From the NCBI GenBank assembly GCA_030697555.1, contig JAUYPV010000017.1, positions 62,001 through 126,000 of the forward strand: a stretch of DNA of 64,000 bases, given 5' to 3'. Below the pieces are notes generated by a model. It was not told the origin of the DNA and did no database searches. It saw nothing but the letters and a program-made list of their open reading frames with translations. This document shows positions 12,809-19,686 of the stretch, piece after piece. Position 1 is the first letter of the stretch; each line of letters starts with the position of its first letter. The translations under genes and the position numbers were made by a program. This DNA comes from Hyphomonadaceae bacterium (GTDB lineage: Bacteria > Pseudomonadota > Alphaproteobacteria > Caulobacterales > Hyphomonadaceae).

Positions 12809-13600
12809 TCAGGCCGCCCGCGCAGCATGGCGGCTGTAGAGGAAATCGAGCACCTTCTGGCGATACTGATTGAAACGTGGCTCCTCGAGCATTGCCACCC
12901 GGCAGCGCGGGCGCGGCAACACGATGTCGAGAATCTCGCCGATGATCGCAGCAGGACCGTTGGTCATCATAACGATGCGGTCGGAGAGGAAAACGGCTTC
13001 GTCGACATCGTGAGTGATCATCAAGATGGTGCAACCGACCCTCGCGTGGATTTCGGAGACCGCTTCCTGCAGGCTTGCGCGCGTCAGCGCATCGAGCGCG
13101 CCGAACGGTTCGTCGAGCAGCAGGACCTTCGGCTCCATCGCCAGCGCGCGGGCGATGCCGACGCGCTGCTTCATGCCGCCGGAGATCTCGCCCGGCCGTT
13201 TCGCGGCGGCATGGGTCATCTGCACCAGCTGGAGGTTGTGCATCGTCCAATCATGGCGTTCGGCGCGCGACTTCGTACGGCCGAACACCTTGTCCACCGC
13301 GAGGCGGACATTCTCGTAGCAGGACAGCCAGGGCAGCAGGCTGTGGTTCTGGAAAACGATCGCCCGCTCCGGTCCTGGCCCGGCCACTTCCCGGCGGTCG
13401 AGGATCACGCCGCCTGAAACCGGCGCTACGAGTCCTCCGACGACATTGAGCAGGGTGGACTTCCCGCAGCCCGAATGCCCGATGATGGAGACGTATTCGC
13501 CCTGCTCGATCGCCAGCGAGATGCTTCGCAGGACATCCGAGACGACGCCCGCGCGCTGGAAGGTGACAGACACGTTCTCGATGGAGAGATAGCTGGACAT
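12809..13600 (-). CDS. nrtD: Nitrate/nitrite ABC transporter ATP-binding protein (NrtD/SsuB-like)
   Basis: The 263-residue ATPase has a Walker A loop (GHSGCGKSTLLN), the signature ISGGMKQRVGIA, Walker B VLLLDEPFGALD and the H-loop ITHDVDEAVFL. The family (NrtD, SsuB, TauB) energises uptake of nitrate, sulfonates or taurine. The neighbouring CmpA/NrtA-type binding protein points to nitrate or nitrite. It is the last gene of a four-gene minus-strand unit, 12 bases after the permease. No nitrate or nitrite reductase gene follows, so assimilation enzymes must lie elsewhere. Confidence 0.88.
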   Translation of the reverse strand: MSSYLSIENVSVTFQRAGVVSDVLRSISLAIEQGEYVSIIGHSGCGKSTLLNVVGGLVAPVSGGVILDRREVAGPGPERAIVFQNHSLLPWLSCYENVRLAVDKVFGRTKSRAERHDWTMHNLQLVQMTHAAAKRPGEISGGMKQRVGIARALAMEPKVLLLDEPFGALDALTRASLQEAVSEIHARVGCTILMITHDVDEAVFLSDRIVMMTNGPAAIIGEILDIVLPRPRCRVAMLEEPRFNQYRQKVLDFLYSRHAARAA

Positions 13601-13612
13601 GGTTGCGCTTTC

Positions 13613-14521
13613 CTAGCTCGCGGCCGTTCCGCGCGAGGCGAAACGTCCCAGAAGGGCGACGAAGCGATCCAGCGCGTAGCCGACGAGGCCGACCCAGATC
13701 AGGGCGACGATGATGTCGGAGATGCGGCTGGCGTTGTACTGGTCCCAGATGAAGAACCCGATGCCGACCCCGCCCAGCAACATCTCGGACGCAACGATCG
13801 CCAGCCAGCTCATGCCGATCCCGATGCGCAAGCCGGTGAAGATGTAGGGCGTCGCCGCCGGCGCCATGATGCGGAAGAACATCTCGGCGGACGACAGCCG
13901 CAACACTCGGCCGACGTTGAGATAGTCCTGCGGCAGGTTCCGGATGCCTACTGCCGTGTTGATGATCACCGGCCAGATCGATGTGATGAAGATCACGAAC
14001 AGCGCGGAAGGCTGCGCTTCCCGGAACAGCGCCAGAGAGATCGGCAGCCATGCAAGCGGCGGGACGGTGCGCAGCACCTGGAAAACCGGATCGAATGCCC
14101 GCAGCGCCCACTTGTTGGCGCCGATCCAGACACCGAGGAGCACGCCGGCCAGAGCGGCCATGCTGAAGCCGATCGCCACCCGCGAGAGCGACGTCGACAC
14201 ATGCCAGAACAGCCCCTTATCAACGCCGCCCCGATTGAAGAACGGATCGACGATCAGCTCGCGTGACTGCTCCCAGATCGACAGCGGCCCCGGAAACAGC
14301 GACGCGGGATCGCCGCAAGCAATCTGCCAGACAATAAGGATCAGGGTGATGACAAGCAGCGGCGGCACGACCGAAGCGAGCACCTGGCCTGCAAACGCCG
14401 GATGGCGGCCGGGGCGCCTTTTTGGTTGGGGCAGTTTCACGATTGCCGCGCTGGATTGGGAGGCAACCTCGGGGAGGGCGTCGGATTTCACGGCGGCGAG
14501 CACTGTCATGGCCGTCTTCAC
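13613..14521 (-). CDS. nrtB: Nitrate/nitrite ABC transporter permease
   Basis: The 302-residue membrane protein has about six predicted segments, starting with VVPPLLVITLILIVWQIAC. The binding-protein-dependent permease core includes the EAA-type stretch MLLGGVGIGFFIWDQYNA. The start ATG at 14521 overlaps the stop of the binding-protein gene by four bases, indicating translational coupling. It would form the inner-membrane channel for the NrtA-like protein and the NrtD-like ATPase. Confidence 0.88.
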   Translation of the reverse strand: MKTAMTVLAAVKSDALPEVASQSSAAIVKLPQPKRRPGRHPAFAGQVLASVVPPLLVITLILIVWQIACGDPASLFPGPLSIWEQSRELIVDPFFNRGGVDKGLFWHVSTSLSRVAIGFSMAALAGVLLGVWIGANKWALRAFDPVFQVLRTVPPLAWLPISLALFREAQPSALFVIFITSIWPVIINTAVGIRNLPQDYLNVGRVLRLSSAEMFFRIMAPAATPYIFTGLRIGIGMSWLAIVASEMLLGGVGIGFFIWDQYNASRISDIIVALIWVGLVGYALDRFVALLGRFASRGTAAS

Positions 14522-15804
14522 GCGATCCGTTTGATTGAGAGCGAGGCGAGATAGGCTTCAGGGTTAGCCGGATCGAACGTCTTCCCGTCGAAGAATTTCT
14601 CGACGCCGCGGCTGTCGAATGCAGGCGCCGCAACCTTCAGCGTGGACGCGGCGGTGCGCCACATGTCCGACCGGTTCACTTTGTCCACGGTCGCGTTGAT
14701 GTCGGTTCCGGCGGGGATGTTTCCCCAGCGGATGTTCTCAGCGAGGAACCATTTGTCGTGCGACTTCCACGGGAAACTCGCGTCATCCGCCCAGAACTTC
14801 ATGATGTGCGGCGACTTCTCGACGACGCGACCCGGGTCGTAGGCGATCTTGCCGGTGAGGCGCGGCAGGATGTCATTGAGCGGCACGTTGATGTATTGCC
14901 GCCCCGCCACGATCGAGCACATGGCCGGCCGGTTCTTCATGTCATCGCACCAGCGCTGCGCCTCCATCACTGCGGTAAGAAGCGCCTGCGCGGCGCGCGG
15001 ATATTTCGCCACCCAGTCGGCCCGCATGCCGAGGGCTTTCTCGGGATGATTCATCCACATCTCGGACGTTGTCGTCGCGGTGGCTCCGAGCTTCTGGCTG
15101 ACTAGCTGCGCGTTCCAAGGCTCGCCGACGCAGAAGGCATCCTGCGTGCCGGCGCGCATGTTCGCCACCATCTGCGGCGGCGGGATCACGATGGTCTCGC
15201 AATCGGCGTCGGGGTTCACTCCGCCTGCAGCGAGCCAGTAGCGTAACCATAGATCGTGCGTTCCTCCCCGGAACGTCATGGCGACCTTTGCGGTCTTGCC
15301 TGCCTTCTTCATGTCCGCGAAGCGCGCCTTCAGCGCCGAGGCATCGAGTTTCACGCCCGACGTGTGCAGCGCGTTTGAAACCGAAATCGCCTGCCCGTTT
15401 ATGTTGAGACGGCAGAGGATGTTCATCGGCACAGGTTGGCCGCCGCTGATGGTTCCCAGCGTCATCAGGTAGGGCATGGGCGTAAGGATGTGCGCCCCGT
15501 CGATTCCACCGGCGCCGGAGCCCAGCACGAGGTTGTCGCGCGTCGAGGCCCATGAAGCCTGCTTCAGCACTTCCACGTCAGGCAGGCCGTACTTGTCGAA
15601 CAGCCCGCGCTCCTTCGCGATGATCAGCGGCGAGCAGTCAGTCAGCGCGATGAAGCCGAGCTTGGCTTTAGTGATCTCCGGCCCCTTGCCCTGAGCGAAA
15701 GCGCCGTCGGGAAACGCCAGCCTGGCGGCGAGCACGGTTGCGGCTGCGCCTGTCAGGGCGGCGCGACGGCTCAAACCCTTCTTCTTCTCAGAAACGTTGG
15801 TCAT
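14518..15804 (-). CDS. nrtA: Nitrate ABC transporter substrate-binding protein (CmpA/NrtA family)
   Basis: This 428-residue protein starts with a twin-arginine signal (LSRRAALTGAAATVLAARL). The mature part shows family hallmarks: LGFIALTDCSPLIIAKERGLF near the start, the central VGEPWNAQLVSQK, and NIPAGTDINATVDKVNRSDM near the end. CmpA/NrtA proteins bind nitrate, nitrite or bicarbonate. The attached permease and ATPase and the leader structures upstream favour nitrate/nitrite. It lies 27 bases downstream of the porin gene in the same unit. Confidence 0.9.
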   Translation of the reverse strand: MTNVSEKKKGLSRRAALTGAAATVLAARLAFPDGAFAQGKGPEITKAKLGFIALTDCSPLIIAKERGLFDKYGLPDVEVLKQASWASTRDNLVLGSGAGGIDGAHILTPMPYLMTLGTISGGQPVPMNILCRLNINGQAISVSNALHTSGVKLDASALKARFADMKKAGKTAKVAMTFRGGTHDLWLRYWLAAGGVNPDADCETIVIPPPQMVANMRAGTQDAFCVGEPWNAQLVSQKLGATATTTSEMWMNHPEKALGMRADWVAKYPRAAQALLTAVMEAQRWCDDMKNRPAMCSIVAGRQYINVPLNDILPRLTGKIAYDPGRVVEKSPHIMKFWADDASFPWKSHDKWFLAENIRWGNIPAGTDINATVDKVNRSDMWRTAASTLKVAAPAFDSRGVEKFFDGKTFDPANPEAYLASLSIKRIA

Positions 15805-15831: not shown

Positions 15832-17127
15832 CTAGAGTTTCCATTCGAAGCCGAACCACACCTTGGTGCGGTCCGCCGGAGCAGGCGCGACGCCCGGCCC
15901 GTCATAGTCGGCAAACTTGAGGAGCCAGGAGAGGCGCGGCGTGATCGCGCCCGTCGCCTGGAGGTTCCATTCGGAGCCGAGATCGGCGCCTGTCCGCTCC
16001 GCTTCGAAGTCGTGGTAGCGGGCGAGGAAGGCGAGGTTGAAGAGGTAGTCCCACTTCCAGCGCGGGCTCCACGTGACGGTGGCGTTGAGATCGTTGATCC
16101 CGTCGACCGTGGTCTTCACACCGTTGACGATAAAGGCGTCGGACCATCCCTGGAAAGCGTGCAGCGTCGCCAGCGGCGTCGAAAAACCTCGCGCGCCATT
16201 GCCCTCCAGCGTCTCGTAGCTGATGCGGCCGGAGAATTCCTCCAGCGTCGCCGTGACCTCGGCGCTGGCCATGTCGAGATCGTAGTCCAGCAGGCTCTCG
16301 CCATGGTCGCTCTGGGTGGCGTAGCTGGCGGCATAGGCCACGTTGACGGCGCCGAACCACTGCTTGCCTGACGCTTTCACACCATAGGTGAGGTTCGATT
16401 GGTTGCGCACCCCGGGTGTCGTCGGCTTGGTGAAGTCCAGCGCATAGACGAACGCCGCAACCTTCAGCGGATCGGCGAAGGCGTAGCTGAAATTGGCGAT
16501 GTGACTGTTCGAGTCCCAGTCCTGCGCTTCGGCGAAAATGCGGTTTACGTGGGCGATATACGCGTAGGTGACGTCGAACCGCCCCAGATCCGCGTCGAAC
16601 CTCGCCGCATCGAAGGTCTGCTCGTCCTGGCGCCACGCAACGCCGCCAATGAAGCGCTGATCGTCCAGATTGATGCGCTGGCGCCCCAGGGTGGCAGTGA
16701 AACGGCTGTCCGGCGTCCACACGACCTGCAGCCGGTTCAGCTCGGTAACATCGGGATCGAACACCTGCGCGAACGTCGTCTTGCCGTTGACGTTGGTGTC
16801 GTAGTTCTCCTCGCCGAGCTGACGGACATCCTCGAATTCGATCGTGGCCTGCAGGTTGTTCCACCTGGCTGTCTGCCAGCCCAGCCGCGTGCGGGCAGTG
16901 AAAGCCTCGGCATCGATCCGGCCGGTCTGGTCGACGAGTTCGAGCCGCGGCCGGAATTCGAGGATCGGTGTTCCTTTCTGAATCGCGGCGCCGATATCCA
17001 GCGGCGGATCCGCCGCCTGCGCATACGCGCCGCCGGCGGTTATCATCGCGATACTCGCCGCGCCCCCGAGCGCGGCTATGCCTCTGATTGTCGTTGTCCC
17101 CCGCACTGCTTTACCGCCGTCCGCCAT
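15832..17127 (-). CDS. Outer-membrane beta-barrel porin (alginate-export-like) of the nitrate operon
   Basis: The product is 431 residues from the ATG at 17127, chosen because AGAGGA sits 7 bases upstream and a signal peptide follows (ending near GAYAQ). The rest alternates short beta strands, with typical repeats such as RTRLGWQTARWNNLQ and FTATLGRQRINLDDQRF, and ends in WFGFEWKL with an aromatic near the C-terminus. This is an outer-membrane porin of the alginate-export/porin type. As first gene of the porin-nrtABD unit it probably lets nitrate or nitrite enter the periplasm. A possible longer open frame upstream would run through the leader terminator and is not credible. Confidence 0.85.
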   Translation of the reverse strand: MADGGKAVRGTTTIRGIAALGGAASIAMITAGGAYAQAADPPLDIGAAIQKGTPILEFRPRLELVDQTGRIDAEAFTARTRLGWQTARWNNLQATIEFEDVRQLGEENYDTNVNGKTTFAQVFDPDVTELNRLQVVWTPDSRFTATLGRQRINLDDQRFIGGVAWRQDEQTFDAARFDADLGRFDVTYAYIAHVNRIFAEAQDWDSNSHIANFSYAFADPLKVAAFVYALDFTKPTTPGVRNQSNLTYGVKASGKQWFGAVNVAYAASYATQSDHGESLLDYDLDMASAEVTATLEEFSGRISYETLEGNGARGFSTPLATLHAFQGWSDAFIVNGVKTTVDGINDLNATVTWSPRWKWDYLFNLAFLARYHDFEAERTGADLGSEWNLQATGAITPRLSWLLKFADYDGPGVAPAPADRTKVWFGFEWKL

Positions 17128-17151: not shown

Positions 17152-17196
17152 AAAAAAAAAAAACGCCCGCGCGGCGCCGATGAGGCCGCACGGACG
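17152..17196 (-). terminator. Leader terminator (attenuator) of the porin-nrtABD operon
   Basis: On the minus strand CGTCCGTGCGGC (17196-17185) pairs with GCCGCGCGGGCG (17175-17164) across a 9-base loop, a 12-pair stem with two G-T pairs. It is followed at once by twelve T (17163-17152). This is a strong intrinsic terminator placed only 24 bases before the porin ATG, so full expression of the operon requires antitermination. Confidence 0.9.
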
Positions 17197-17255
17197 TCGT
17201 TGTCCGAACTTGATGTGGGCGCAGCGATGCGCCAACCGGAACGCCATTGCCCCGG
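17191..17255 (-). promoter_or_regulatory. ANTAR-type antiterminator: three hexaloop hairpins before the attenuator
   Basis: Three consecutive minus-strand hairpins each have a six-base loop with A at position 1 and G at position 4. Hairpin A (17255-17236): CCGGGGC, loop AATGGC, GTTCCGG. Hairpin B (17233-17218): GGCGC, loop ATCGCT, GCGCC. Hairpin C (17206-17191): CGGAC, loop AACGAC, GTCCG. Hairpin C uses bases 17196-17191 of the terminator's 5' arm, so the two cannot coexist. ANTAR proteins (NasR, NasT, EutV) are known to bind such paired hexaloop hairpins and prevent termination, and nitrate assimilation operons are classic targets. The regulator gene is not in this window. Confidence 0.82.
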
Positions 17256-17532: not shown

Positions 17533-17565
17533 GACTTCTCAGCGACTGGAACTCGCTGAGAAGTC
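17533..17565 (-). terminator. 13-pair hairpin after the two-component operon
   Basis: GACTTCTCAGCGA and TCGCTGAGAAGTC form a perfect 13-pair stem with a 7-base loop, eight bases downstream of the histidine kinase stop on the minus strand. There is no T-run, but the position fits a transcript end. Confidence 0.6.
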
Positions 17566-17573
17566 GGCGTCCG

Positions 17574-18953
17574 TCATGATGATGCAGGAGCTGATATCGG
17601 TGAGCCGCCGCTCTTCAGCGAGACGTGCGCACAAACGCCTCCACCCGGCCGGTTCGCAAGCTTGAAAATGCCGCCATGGCTCTCGGTCAGCGCCTTGACG
17701 ATGGCGAGACCCAGTCCGGAGCCCCCCTCCTCGCGACCGCGAGACGGTTCCAGTCGCTCGAACGGGGCGAGAATGCGATCGATTTCGGCATCGGGTATGC
17801 CCGGACCGCGATCGGCGACTTCGATGATGACCCAGCCGGGCTCAAGCGACACGGCAAGTTCGGCAGCGGCGCCGTAGCGCAGCGCGTTGTCAGTGAGGTT
17901 CGCCAGGATTCGCCGCAACGCAACTGGGTCGACGACCGCCTGCGCTGCTGGCGCCGTGGGAGGAGCGAAGATCACCGCCTCACCAAGCTCTTTCCGCGCC
18001 GCAGCGAACGCAATCGTTTCGGCGACAACGTCCGCGCGGGCCTGCCTTTCGTCGCGTTTCTCCGTGGTGCGCGCAAACAGCAGCGTGTCGCCGATCAGCT
18101 CGCTCATCTCCTCGATGTCGCGTTCCGCGCGTTCGCGCTGCGAGGCGTCAGCAATGAACTCGGCGCGCATCCGCAGGCGCGTCAGGTAAGTGCGAAGATC
18201 GTGGGCGATCGCCGCGACCAATCGCGTGCGTTCCTGCACCAGGAGGCGGATGCGCCTCTTCATGTCGTTGAAGGAGGACGCCAGTTCGCGGAGCTCTTTT
18301 GGGCCTTTGGTTTCAAGATCGGGAGCATCGAGCCGCTCGGCGAACATGCGGGCAGTTGCGGCCAGCTTCTCGATCGGCCGCGCAGTCTGGCGGACGGCGA
18401 TCACCAGCAACACGATCACGATGAGGCCGACGAGACCGACGATAGCGAGCCCGCGGCCGAGCACCCCGCGCAGTAGAACCGAACGCATCGGCTCCATCGC
18501 GACCCAGGGGCCGTCTCGCAAACGCACATAGAGTCGCACGGGCCGCCACTCCTCGTCTCGCCGGTTCCGGAACCCCTGAAACCCGCCTCGCCGCTGCAGG
18601 TCGACATGGACGTCCCGGCTGGCGAAAGCCTCGTCATAGCTGTCCAGAAAGCGGGTCAGGATGGGCGCGGATGTCCCGTCGGCCGCGGTGGCCGGAATCA
18701 CATCGACGAGGCGGACGGACATCGACGCGGAGTTGAGCGCATCCAGCAGGCGGGGCCTGGCTTTCGGGCTGGCCGCCTCGAGCACTTCGACAATGGCCGC
18801 TGCTTGCGCAGGCAGCGGCAGGCGTTCCGCCGACGCCCGGTCACGCCCGATCGGCGCAAAGAAAGCCACCGCCATGGCAAGATTGAACAGCACGACCGCG
18901 CCAAGCAGGAAGCCAACAAGCCGCAGCGATATAGAGTTTGCCAGAGGCGCCAT
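17574..18953 (-). CDS. Sensor histidine kinase (EnvZ-like architecture)
   Basis: The protein is 459 residues from an ATG one base past the response-regulator stop, so the pair is tightly coupled. It has a membrane segment at about 9-31, a periplasmic sensor region to about 165, a second membrane segment at 167-188, a HAMP linker, the H-box with His251 (AIAHDLRTYLTRLRMR), N-box LANLTDNALRYG, and ATP-lid motifs ADRGPGIPD and GSGLGLAIVKAL. The H-box normally reads HDLRTPLT; here Tyr256 replaces the near-invariant proline, which may alter kinase or phosphatase balance. The signal is unknown. The likely targets are the divergent exported genes at 19874 and 20471. Confidence 0.9.
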   Translation of the reverse strand: MAPLANSISLRLVGFLLGAVVLFNLAMAVAFFAPIGRDRASAERLPLPAQAAAIVEVLEAASPKARPRLLDALNSASMSVRLVDVIPATAADGTSAPILTRFLDSYDEAFASRDVHVDLQRRGGFQGFRNRRDEEWRPVRLYVRLRDGPWVAMEPMRSVLLRGVLGRGLAIVGLVGLIVIVLLVIAVRQTARPIEKLAATARMFAERLDAPDLETKGPKELRELASSFNDMKRRIRLLVQERTRLVAAIAHDLRTYLTRLRMRAEFIADASQRERAERDIEEMSELIGDTLLFARTTEKRDERQARADVVAETIAFAAARKELGEAVIFAPPTAPAAQAVVDPVALRRILANLTDNALRYGAAAELAVSLEPGWVIIEVADRGPGIPDAEIDRILAPFERLEPSRGREEGGSGLGLAIVKALTESHGGIFKLANRPGGGVCAHVSLKSGGSPISAPASS

Positions 18954-18954
18954 G

Positions 18955-19686
18955 TCAGGACCGGCTGACCGCCACGGCGAACAGATAGCCGCCATTGCGC
19001 ACTGTCCTGATGAAGCGAGGCGCTGCGGAGTCATCGCCCAGCTTGCGGCGCAGCCGGGACATCATGACATCGACCGACCGGTCGAACGCGGTGGCCTCGC
19101 GGCCCTTCGTCCAGTCCATCAGGAAGTCGCGGCTCAACACGCGCTGGGGGTGCTTAACGAAGGCCATCAACAGGTCGTACTCGCCAGCGGACAGCTCGAT
19201 CGCTTCGCCGCCGGGGTTGGTAAAACTCCGCGAAGCCGCGTCCAGATTCCATCCTTCGAAACTATAGATTTCGGCATCGGCACTGATCAATTGGCGTGAT
19301 GCAGAGTCAGCGGGCGCCCGGGCGCGTCGCAGAACCGAACGGGCGCGAGCGATCAACTCGCGCGGATTGAAAGGCTTCGGAAGATAGTCGTCGGCGCCGA
19401 TTTCGAGACCGATGATGCGGTCGATATCCTCCCCGCGCGCGGTTACCAAGATTACCGGAGGTCCATTGTTGGCGGCGAGCCGGCGGCACACCGACAAGCC
19501 GTCCTCTCCCGGCATCATGACGTCCATGACGATCAGCGCCGGCCGGGTGCGGGCCAAAAGCGCGTCGAGGGCGCGTGCGTTCTCGCACGGGGCTGCCTCG
19601 AATCCCTCCCGCCGGAACAGGGCGACGGCCAGATCCCGGATTTCTGGATCATCCTCAACAATGGCGACGAGATCGAGCGGTGTCAT
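18955..19686 (-). CDS. OmpR-family response regulator
   Basis: This 243-residue regulator has a receiver domain (acidic pair EDD at residues 11-13, phosphoacceptor Asp55 in IVMDVMMPGEDG, LVTARGE, and Lys in DDYLPKPFNP) and a winged-helix DNA-binding domain ending VDVMMSRLRRKLGDD and RTVRNGGYLFA. The ATG at 19686 is preferred to a TTG five codons upstream. No strong ribosome-binding site is visible. It is the first gene of the regulator-kinase unit and is transcribed away from the small exported gene at 19874; the 187-base gap between them may hold its binding sites. Confidence 0.9.
   Translation of the reverse strand: MTPLDLVAIVEDDPEIRDLAVALFRREGFEAAPCENARALDALLARTRPALIVMDVMMPGEDGLSVCRRLAANNGPPVILVTARGEDIDRIIGLEIGADDYLPKPFNPRELIARARSVLRRARAPADSASRQLISADAEIYSFEGWNLDAASRSFTNPGGEAIELSAGEYDLLMAFVKHPQRVLSRDFLMDWTKGREATAFDRSVDVMMSRLRRKLGDDSAAPRFIRTVRNGGYLFAVAVSRS

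Follow-up and report, generated by a model that had tools for sequence, protein, structure and literature searches.

A putative NasT-controlled attenuator with three hexaloop hairpins before a porin-nrtABC nitrate uptake operon in a Hyphomonadaceae bacterium

How a single ANTAR dimer uses two hexaloops, and what part the spacing between them plays, is still argued. The locus described here, in the window (the whole 64,000-nucleotide stretch of a Hyphomonadaceae contig that was analysed), raises the question in an unusual form: three hairpins with readable ANTAR-type hexaloops stand before an intrinsic terminator, and the role of the middle one has to be explained. The operon behind the terminator lies on the minus strand. 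Its first gene (15832-17127, ATG at 17127) encodes an outer-membrane porin (Pfam Alginate_exp PF13372, 37 bits; cut-off 25.2) and is followed by genes for a nitrate-binding protein resembling NrtA that probably carries a Tat signal (14518-15804; Pfam NMT1_2, 344.8 bits; 74% identity to a Caulobacter homologue), the nitrate ABC transporter permease nrtB (13613-14521; TIGR01183 ntrB, 311.9 bits; cut-off 209) and the ATPase nrtC/D (12809-13600; TIGR01184 ntrCD, 331.8 bits; cut-off 291.8). With the nrtB and nrtC models above their NCBIfam cut-offs, the operon is by sequence similarity one for porin-nrtABC nitrate uptake.

In the predicted RNA fold of the leader, the first hairpin, H1 or P1 (17256-17235, minus strand; GCCGGGGC-AATGGC-GTTCCGGT), has a stem of 8 bp, 3 of them G.U, and a hexaloop AAUGGC with A at position 1 (A1), G at position 4 (G4) and a C:G closing pair. 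A gap of 1 nt separates it from the middle hairpin, H2 (17233-17218, minus; GGCGC-ATCGCT-GCGCC), whose stem of 5-6 bp carries either the loop AUCGCU, with A1, G4 and C:G closure, or a UCGC tetraloop. The tetraloop, in which A17228 pairs with U17223 (pair probability 0.76), is the minimum-energy form (-9.3 against -8.6 kcal/mol for the hexaloop, a difference of 0.7). An unpaired spacer of 11 nt (17217-17207, minus) leads to the antiterminator hairpin, H3 or P2 (17206-17191, minus; CGGAC-AACGAC-GTCCG; 5 bp), which like H1 and H2 has a C:G closing pair. P1 and P2 are 28 nt apart, and 12 nt of this gap remain unpaired once H2 has folded. The stem of the intrinsic terminator (17198-17162, minus) and its U12 tract (17163-17152, minus) follow, and 24 nt separate the end of the tract from the porin ATG. 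Thus the three A1/G4 hexaloops (AATGGC, ATCGCT, AACGAC), the T12 terminator 24 bases before the porin and the nitrate operon are all present as an earlier, sequence-only reading of this DNA had described them (minus strand, 17256-17152). Its spacing of 2 bases between hairpins is 1 nt in the case of H1 and H2, and the six bases that it let H3 share with the terminator hold if only 12 pairs are counted, whereas the predicted 5' arm overlaps the last 8 nt of H3 (17198-17191). The either/or switch that it proposed is borne out by folding: the closing pair of H3 has a probability of 0.997 in the absence of the terminator, falling to 0.0 in its presence, and the two structures are mutually exclusive in the predicted folds. 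Directly 3' of the U-tract and before the porin ATG lies an inverted repeat, TTGGCCAAAGGCCAA (17156-17137, minus); at its place the Caulobacter-type relatives have a GGCC...GGC hairpin with a likely ribosome-binding site in the loop. A perfect 13-bp inverted repeat without a T-run, GACTTCTCAGCGA...TCGCTGAGAAGTC (about 17535-17568), is found just past a histidine-kinase gene (17574-19034).

The fold of leader and terminator scored z = -2.4 and that of the plus strand of the same region was ordinary (z = -0.5), which places the feature on the minus strand. A1/G4 hexaloop hairpins (stem of at least 5, with at least 4 GC pairs) were counted on both strands of the 64-kb window. There were 12 and 17 on the two strands; the cluster of three was unique on either strand, and its members formed the only pairs within 60 nt. 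An Rfam scan of the region yielded no family at its gathering score; the best match, at only E = 0.72, was a resemblance of the terminator to plasmid ctRNA and was rejected. A sigma-54-type promoter pattern gave 16 matches, below chance, none of them at a useful position ahead of the leader on the same strand. Searched with a covariance model of the leader, the genome returned this leader as the single match; a P2-core pattern matched 32 times in it (21 in the control), and no other match had an A1/G4 hairpin of at least 5 bp upstream.

The host genome (4.98 Mb, 99% complete) encodes a single ANTAR protein (PF03861, 71.9 bits; cut-off 27.3), a NasT of 216 aa, and a NasS-type NMT1_2 gene adjoins nasT downstream. 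A nitrate/nitrite-type MFS transporter gene and then nirB, both named by sequence resemblance, lie 3' of nasT-nasS. NasT aligns with EutV (PDB 6wsh, E = 5e-16), Rv1626, NasR and AmiR, and its R161, K162, K168, Y183 and M191 align with Arg142, Lys143, Lys149, Tyr164 and Met172 of EutV, the hexaloop contacts in the EutV-RNA structure (PMC8934654). The nasTS genes are on a contig other than that of the leader. In both congeners nasT-nasS is divergent and adjoins the leader. Most Caulobacter-type relatives have nasT and nasS within about 5 kb, and in these relatives nasT-nasS, the porin-nrt genes and the MFS gene mostly fall within a few kb.

Homologous leaders were gathered from Caulobacter, Phenylobacterium and relatives through porin and NrtA searches. 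P1 is homologous in all 11 aligned leaders, with both sides changed in 5 of its 8 pairs, and P2 is almost invariant; the closing C:G, A1 and G4 of both hairpins are the same in 11/11. The leader covariance model found matches in 19 of 398 Caulobacterales genomes, and an ANTAR gene is present in all 19 of these as compared with 76/398 overall. The sequence-only reading had staked its claim of ANTAR control on an ANTAR gene beside nasS and on covariation among related leaders; the sole ANTAR gene of the genome does adjoin nasS, and the compensatory changes in P1 supply the covariation. In congener G091 (L129 / L003), P1, P2 and the terminator stem are kept and the U-tract is missing (GGCGGGATGCATTCG); this attenuator may be decayed or may work differently. 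In Asticcacaulis solisilvae the MFS nitrate transporter gene, not the porin operon, is preceded by an ANTAR leader (L035:7679) that is complete in P1, P2 and terminator and has a 45-nt linker.

The type of switch is already known. Judging from the accessible text of the papers, the nas/nos leaders of Paracoccus and Bradyrhizobium are alike in nitrate-released NasT, hairpins before nitrate genes and antitermination, but that text describes two or an unspecified number of hairpins and no middle hexaloop (PMC3795266, PMC5424462, PMC6759348). In the Klebsiella oxytoca nasF leader the hexaloops of P1 and P2 have A1, G4 and C:G closure, and P2 overlaps the terminator; this leader differs in its one-component regulator NasR and in having two hairpins only (PMC3369936, PMC7496416). 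The eut leaders of Enterococcus faecalis likewise combine a dual hexaloop with a terminator, and Tyr164 of EutV contacts G4 (PMC3369931, PMC8934654), but their linkers measure 5-12 nt (PMC3369931), while the gap between P1 and P2 here holds a hairpin. Activity of eut leaders was lost with a 14-nt or +20-nt linker (PMC3369931, PMC8934654). Actinobacterial ANTAR RNAs share the dual hexaloop motif. Their curation admitted linkers of 2-25 nt (PMC8164766), a range that would overlook long folded ones; linker length may vary in the general model of Ramesh et al. The present leader has several features that characterize dual-hexaloop ANTAR targets, namely AAUGGC in H1 and AACGAC in H3, C:G closure, overlap of P2 with the terminator and an ANTAR gene. 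Its H1-H3 distance of 28 nt is outside both the 5-12 and the 2-25 nt ranges, and the H2-H3 distance is 11 nt. That known targets normally have two hairpins, as the sequence-only reading stated, agrees with the literature, which describes two hairpins and short linkers. In the openly readable main texts that were searched, no leader combining three hexaloops with a long linker was described, and within that scope the layout is apparently new to the literature.

For the middle hairpin, nasT neighbourhoods were also surveyed in 289 alphaproteobacterial genomes and further sets. The pooled set, from which a few doubtful leaders had been taken out by hand ahead of the count, comprised 64 alphaproteobacterial leaders, 53 of them with linkers of at least 25 nt; reversed sequences gave zero leader matches. 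The hairpin tested was the last before P2, picked by energy alone, and shuffles served as the null because a first-hairpin control was confounded by GNRA tetraloops and by a Sphingobium GAUGAC hairpin. G4 was present in 36/53 of these hairpins (shuffles 13.6, max 24), G4 together with a C:G closing pair in 32/53 (shuffles 5.1, max 13) and a RAYG loop in 23/53 (shuffles 1.5, max 5). An R1-G4 hexaloop with C:G closure no more than 14 nt from P2 was found in 24/53 (shuffles 0.8, max 4) and, with one leader per sequence cluster, in 11/29 (shuffles 0.37, max 3), clusters and shuffles correcting for shared ancestry only in part. Three G4 hexaloops occur in leaders from the family of genome G451, and three clean A1/G4 hexaloops in L187 (AAUGGC, AAAGGC, AAAGGC; upstream of a nirB-like gene), L222 (AAUGGC, AAUGAC, AAAGGC) and L213 (AAUGGC, AACGGC, AAGGGC), as well as in L196, where the middle stem is 4 bp. 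Other leaders of this family have G1 in the middle loop, e.g. GACGAC or GAUGGC. The hairpin nearest P2 also has G4 in Caulobacter (GAUGUA, GAUGCA, GACGCA, GACGGG) and in Inquilinus (GAUGCU, GACGCU); no G4 middle hexaloop was seen in Phenylobacterium-like leaders, in some leaders from the order of G430 and in others. By this comparison the third G4 hexaloop is a recurrent, non-universal part of alphaproteobacterial NasT leaders, and its recurrence indicates that the third site is a real architecture. The survey suggests that a third, middle site is common, yet undescribed, in such switches.

What these observations mean for H2 of the present leader can be weighed against the other readings of the locus. 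Its G4, C:G closure and position 11 nt before P2 (class range 2-14 nt) fit the proposed three-hexaloop class, and with its stem, C:G pair, A1 and G4 it conforms to the consensus found by NasR SELEX (C:G pair, A1, G4; PMC7496416). On the other side, its AUCG misses the RAYG pattern common in middle loops, and the loop departs from the consensus at positions 2 and 6, with U in place of A2 and a U6 that can pair with A1; Met172 of EutV has been proposed to exclude a tetraloop (PMC8934654). The two congeners have not kept a middle hexaloop and show a GAUGACA heptaloop and a GCGAG pentaloop at this place. The suggestion of a third site, made in the sequence-only reading, therefore gains from the other alphaproteobacterial leaders and loses in this copy, and from its sequence the chances that NasT would use H2 here are about even. 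The main rival takes H1 and H3 as the sole NasT sites and H2 as a spacer hairpin with a coincidental A1/G4, which would leave 12 unpaired nt of the 28 as the effective distance between P1 and P2; we consider it quite possible, if somewhat short of an even bet. H2 first looked like such a spacer, because no leader in the first set of near relatives except that of the window had an A1/G4 linker hexaloop, most of their linker hairpins being capped by GNRA tetraloops or by other loops without A1/G4. These near-relative linkers of 28-61 nt fold into 1-2 hairpins, and in 29 leaders their stability exceeded that of dinucleotide shuffles (mean z -2.8; 28/29 negative, values that cannot be combined as independent because the leader sequences are related). 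A chance rate of about 6% A1/G4 among hexaloop hairpins of the window and the preference of H2 for the tetraloop point the same way. With the linkers folded, the median number of unpaired nt is 9, near the eut linker range of 5-12 nt (PMC3369931), but it is 7.5 in folded shuffles, and unpaired length was dropped as evidence of shortening. Nor does a pure spacer account for G4, C:G closure and RAYG beside P2 far above shuffles across the class, or for the leaders with three clean A1/G4 hexaloops.

A pairing of H2 with H3 as the canonical ANTAR pair, with H1 as an accessory recruitment hairpin, would have the 5-12 nt spacing of eut leaders, and in the G451 family 4-11 nt separate the middle hexaloop from P2, some members having only two hexaloops, 6-18 nt apart. 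It is H1, not H2, that is strongly conserved in Caulobacterales, by covariation and by a near-invariant loop consensus, and we regard this arrangement as improbable. An ordinary terminator after unrelated hairpins, with no ANTAR control, could draw on the ready folding of GC-rich sequence and on the z of only -0.94 for the hairpins without the terminator; against the constant company of an ANTAR gene, the compensatory changes in P1, the invariant loop bases and the lack of matches in reversed sequence, it is hardly credible.

The reading that we prefer, with an even chance of being right as a whole, is a NasT-controlled, nitrate-responsive attenuator of porin-nrtABC with three hexaloop hairpins, in which H2 is a relay site. 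When nitrate is absent, NasT would be held by NasS and the nascent leader would form the terminator, which consumes P2, and transcription would end at the U12 tract. Nitrate frees NasT from NasS (PMC3795266). Free NasT would then bind P1 as it emerges, pass along the leader and keep P2 folded long enough for the polymerase to read through. In the successive-binding model, which arose from the EutV structure, the dimer binds P1 first and shifts to the emerging P2, for which closeness is needed, and a linker lengthened by 20 nt abolishes EutV antitermination (PMC8934654); a 28-nt gap thus needs folding or a relay. Most of this gap would be folded away in H2, whose G4 hexaloop, 11 nt ahead of P2, would give NasT a weaker landing site between the far P1 and P2. 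A folded linker with a middle hexaloop near P2 would provide the closeness by folding and, we infer, by relay. A relay agrees better with published spacing than the second dimer or graded control that the sequence-only reading had suggested for the third hairpin. The wider proposal, that many alphaproteobacterial NasT leaders are three-site, with NasT moving from a distant P1 to a middle G4 hexaloop and from there holding P2, is held a little more tentatively, at just under an even chance. If it is true, the rule of two hairpins and a short linker for ANTAR targets would be revised. Natural leaders in which P1 is far off and a middle G4 hexaloop stands beside P2 offer a ready-made, direct test of successive binding. 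Alphaproteobacterial ANTAR regulons may also be under-counted, since the published linker limits (2-25 nt) make searches miss long linkers.

A further element was noticed in the gap that separates nasS from the MFS transporter gene. At L133:2505-2770 (minus), this gap contains a conserved single hexaloop, AAYGGC, with C:G closure, lacking both a P1 upstream and a U-tract, and with a covarying hairpin and a GGCG/CGCC element downstream. The same hexaloop is conserved in the nasS-MFS gap of L165 and L166 and, in L034, L036, L037, L041, L042 and L097, before the MFS gene. In the host genome, the loop and 3' arm in this gap (AACGGCGTCT) could form a perfect duplex with AGACGCCGTT, some 50 nt downstream. 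The element resembles an ANTAR target that has one hexaloop and lacks an intrinsic terminator.
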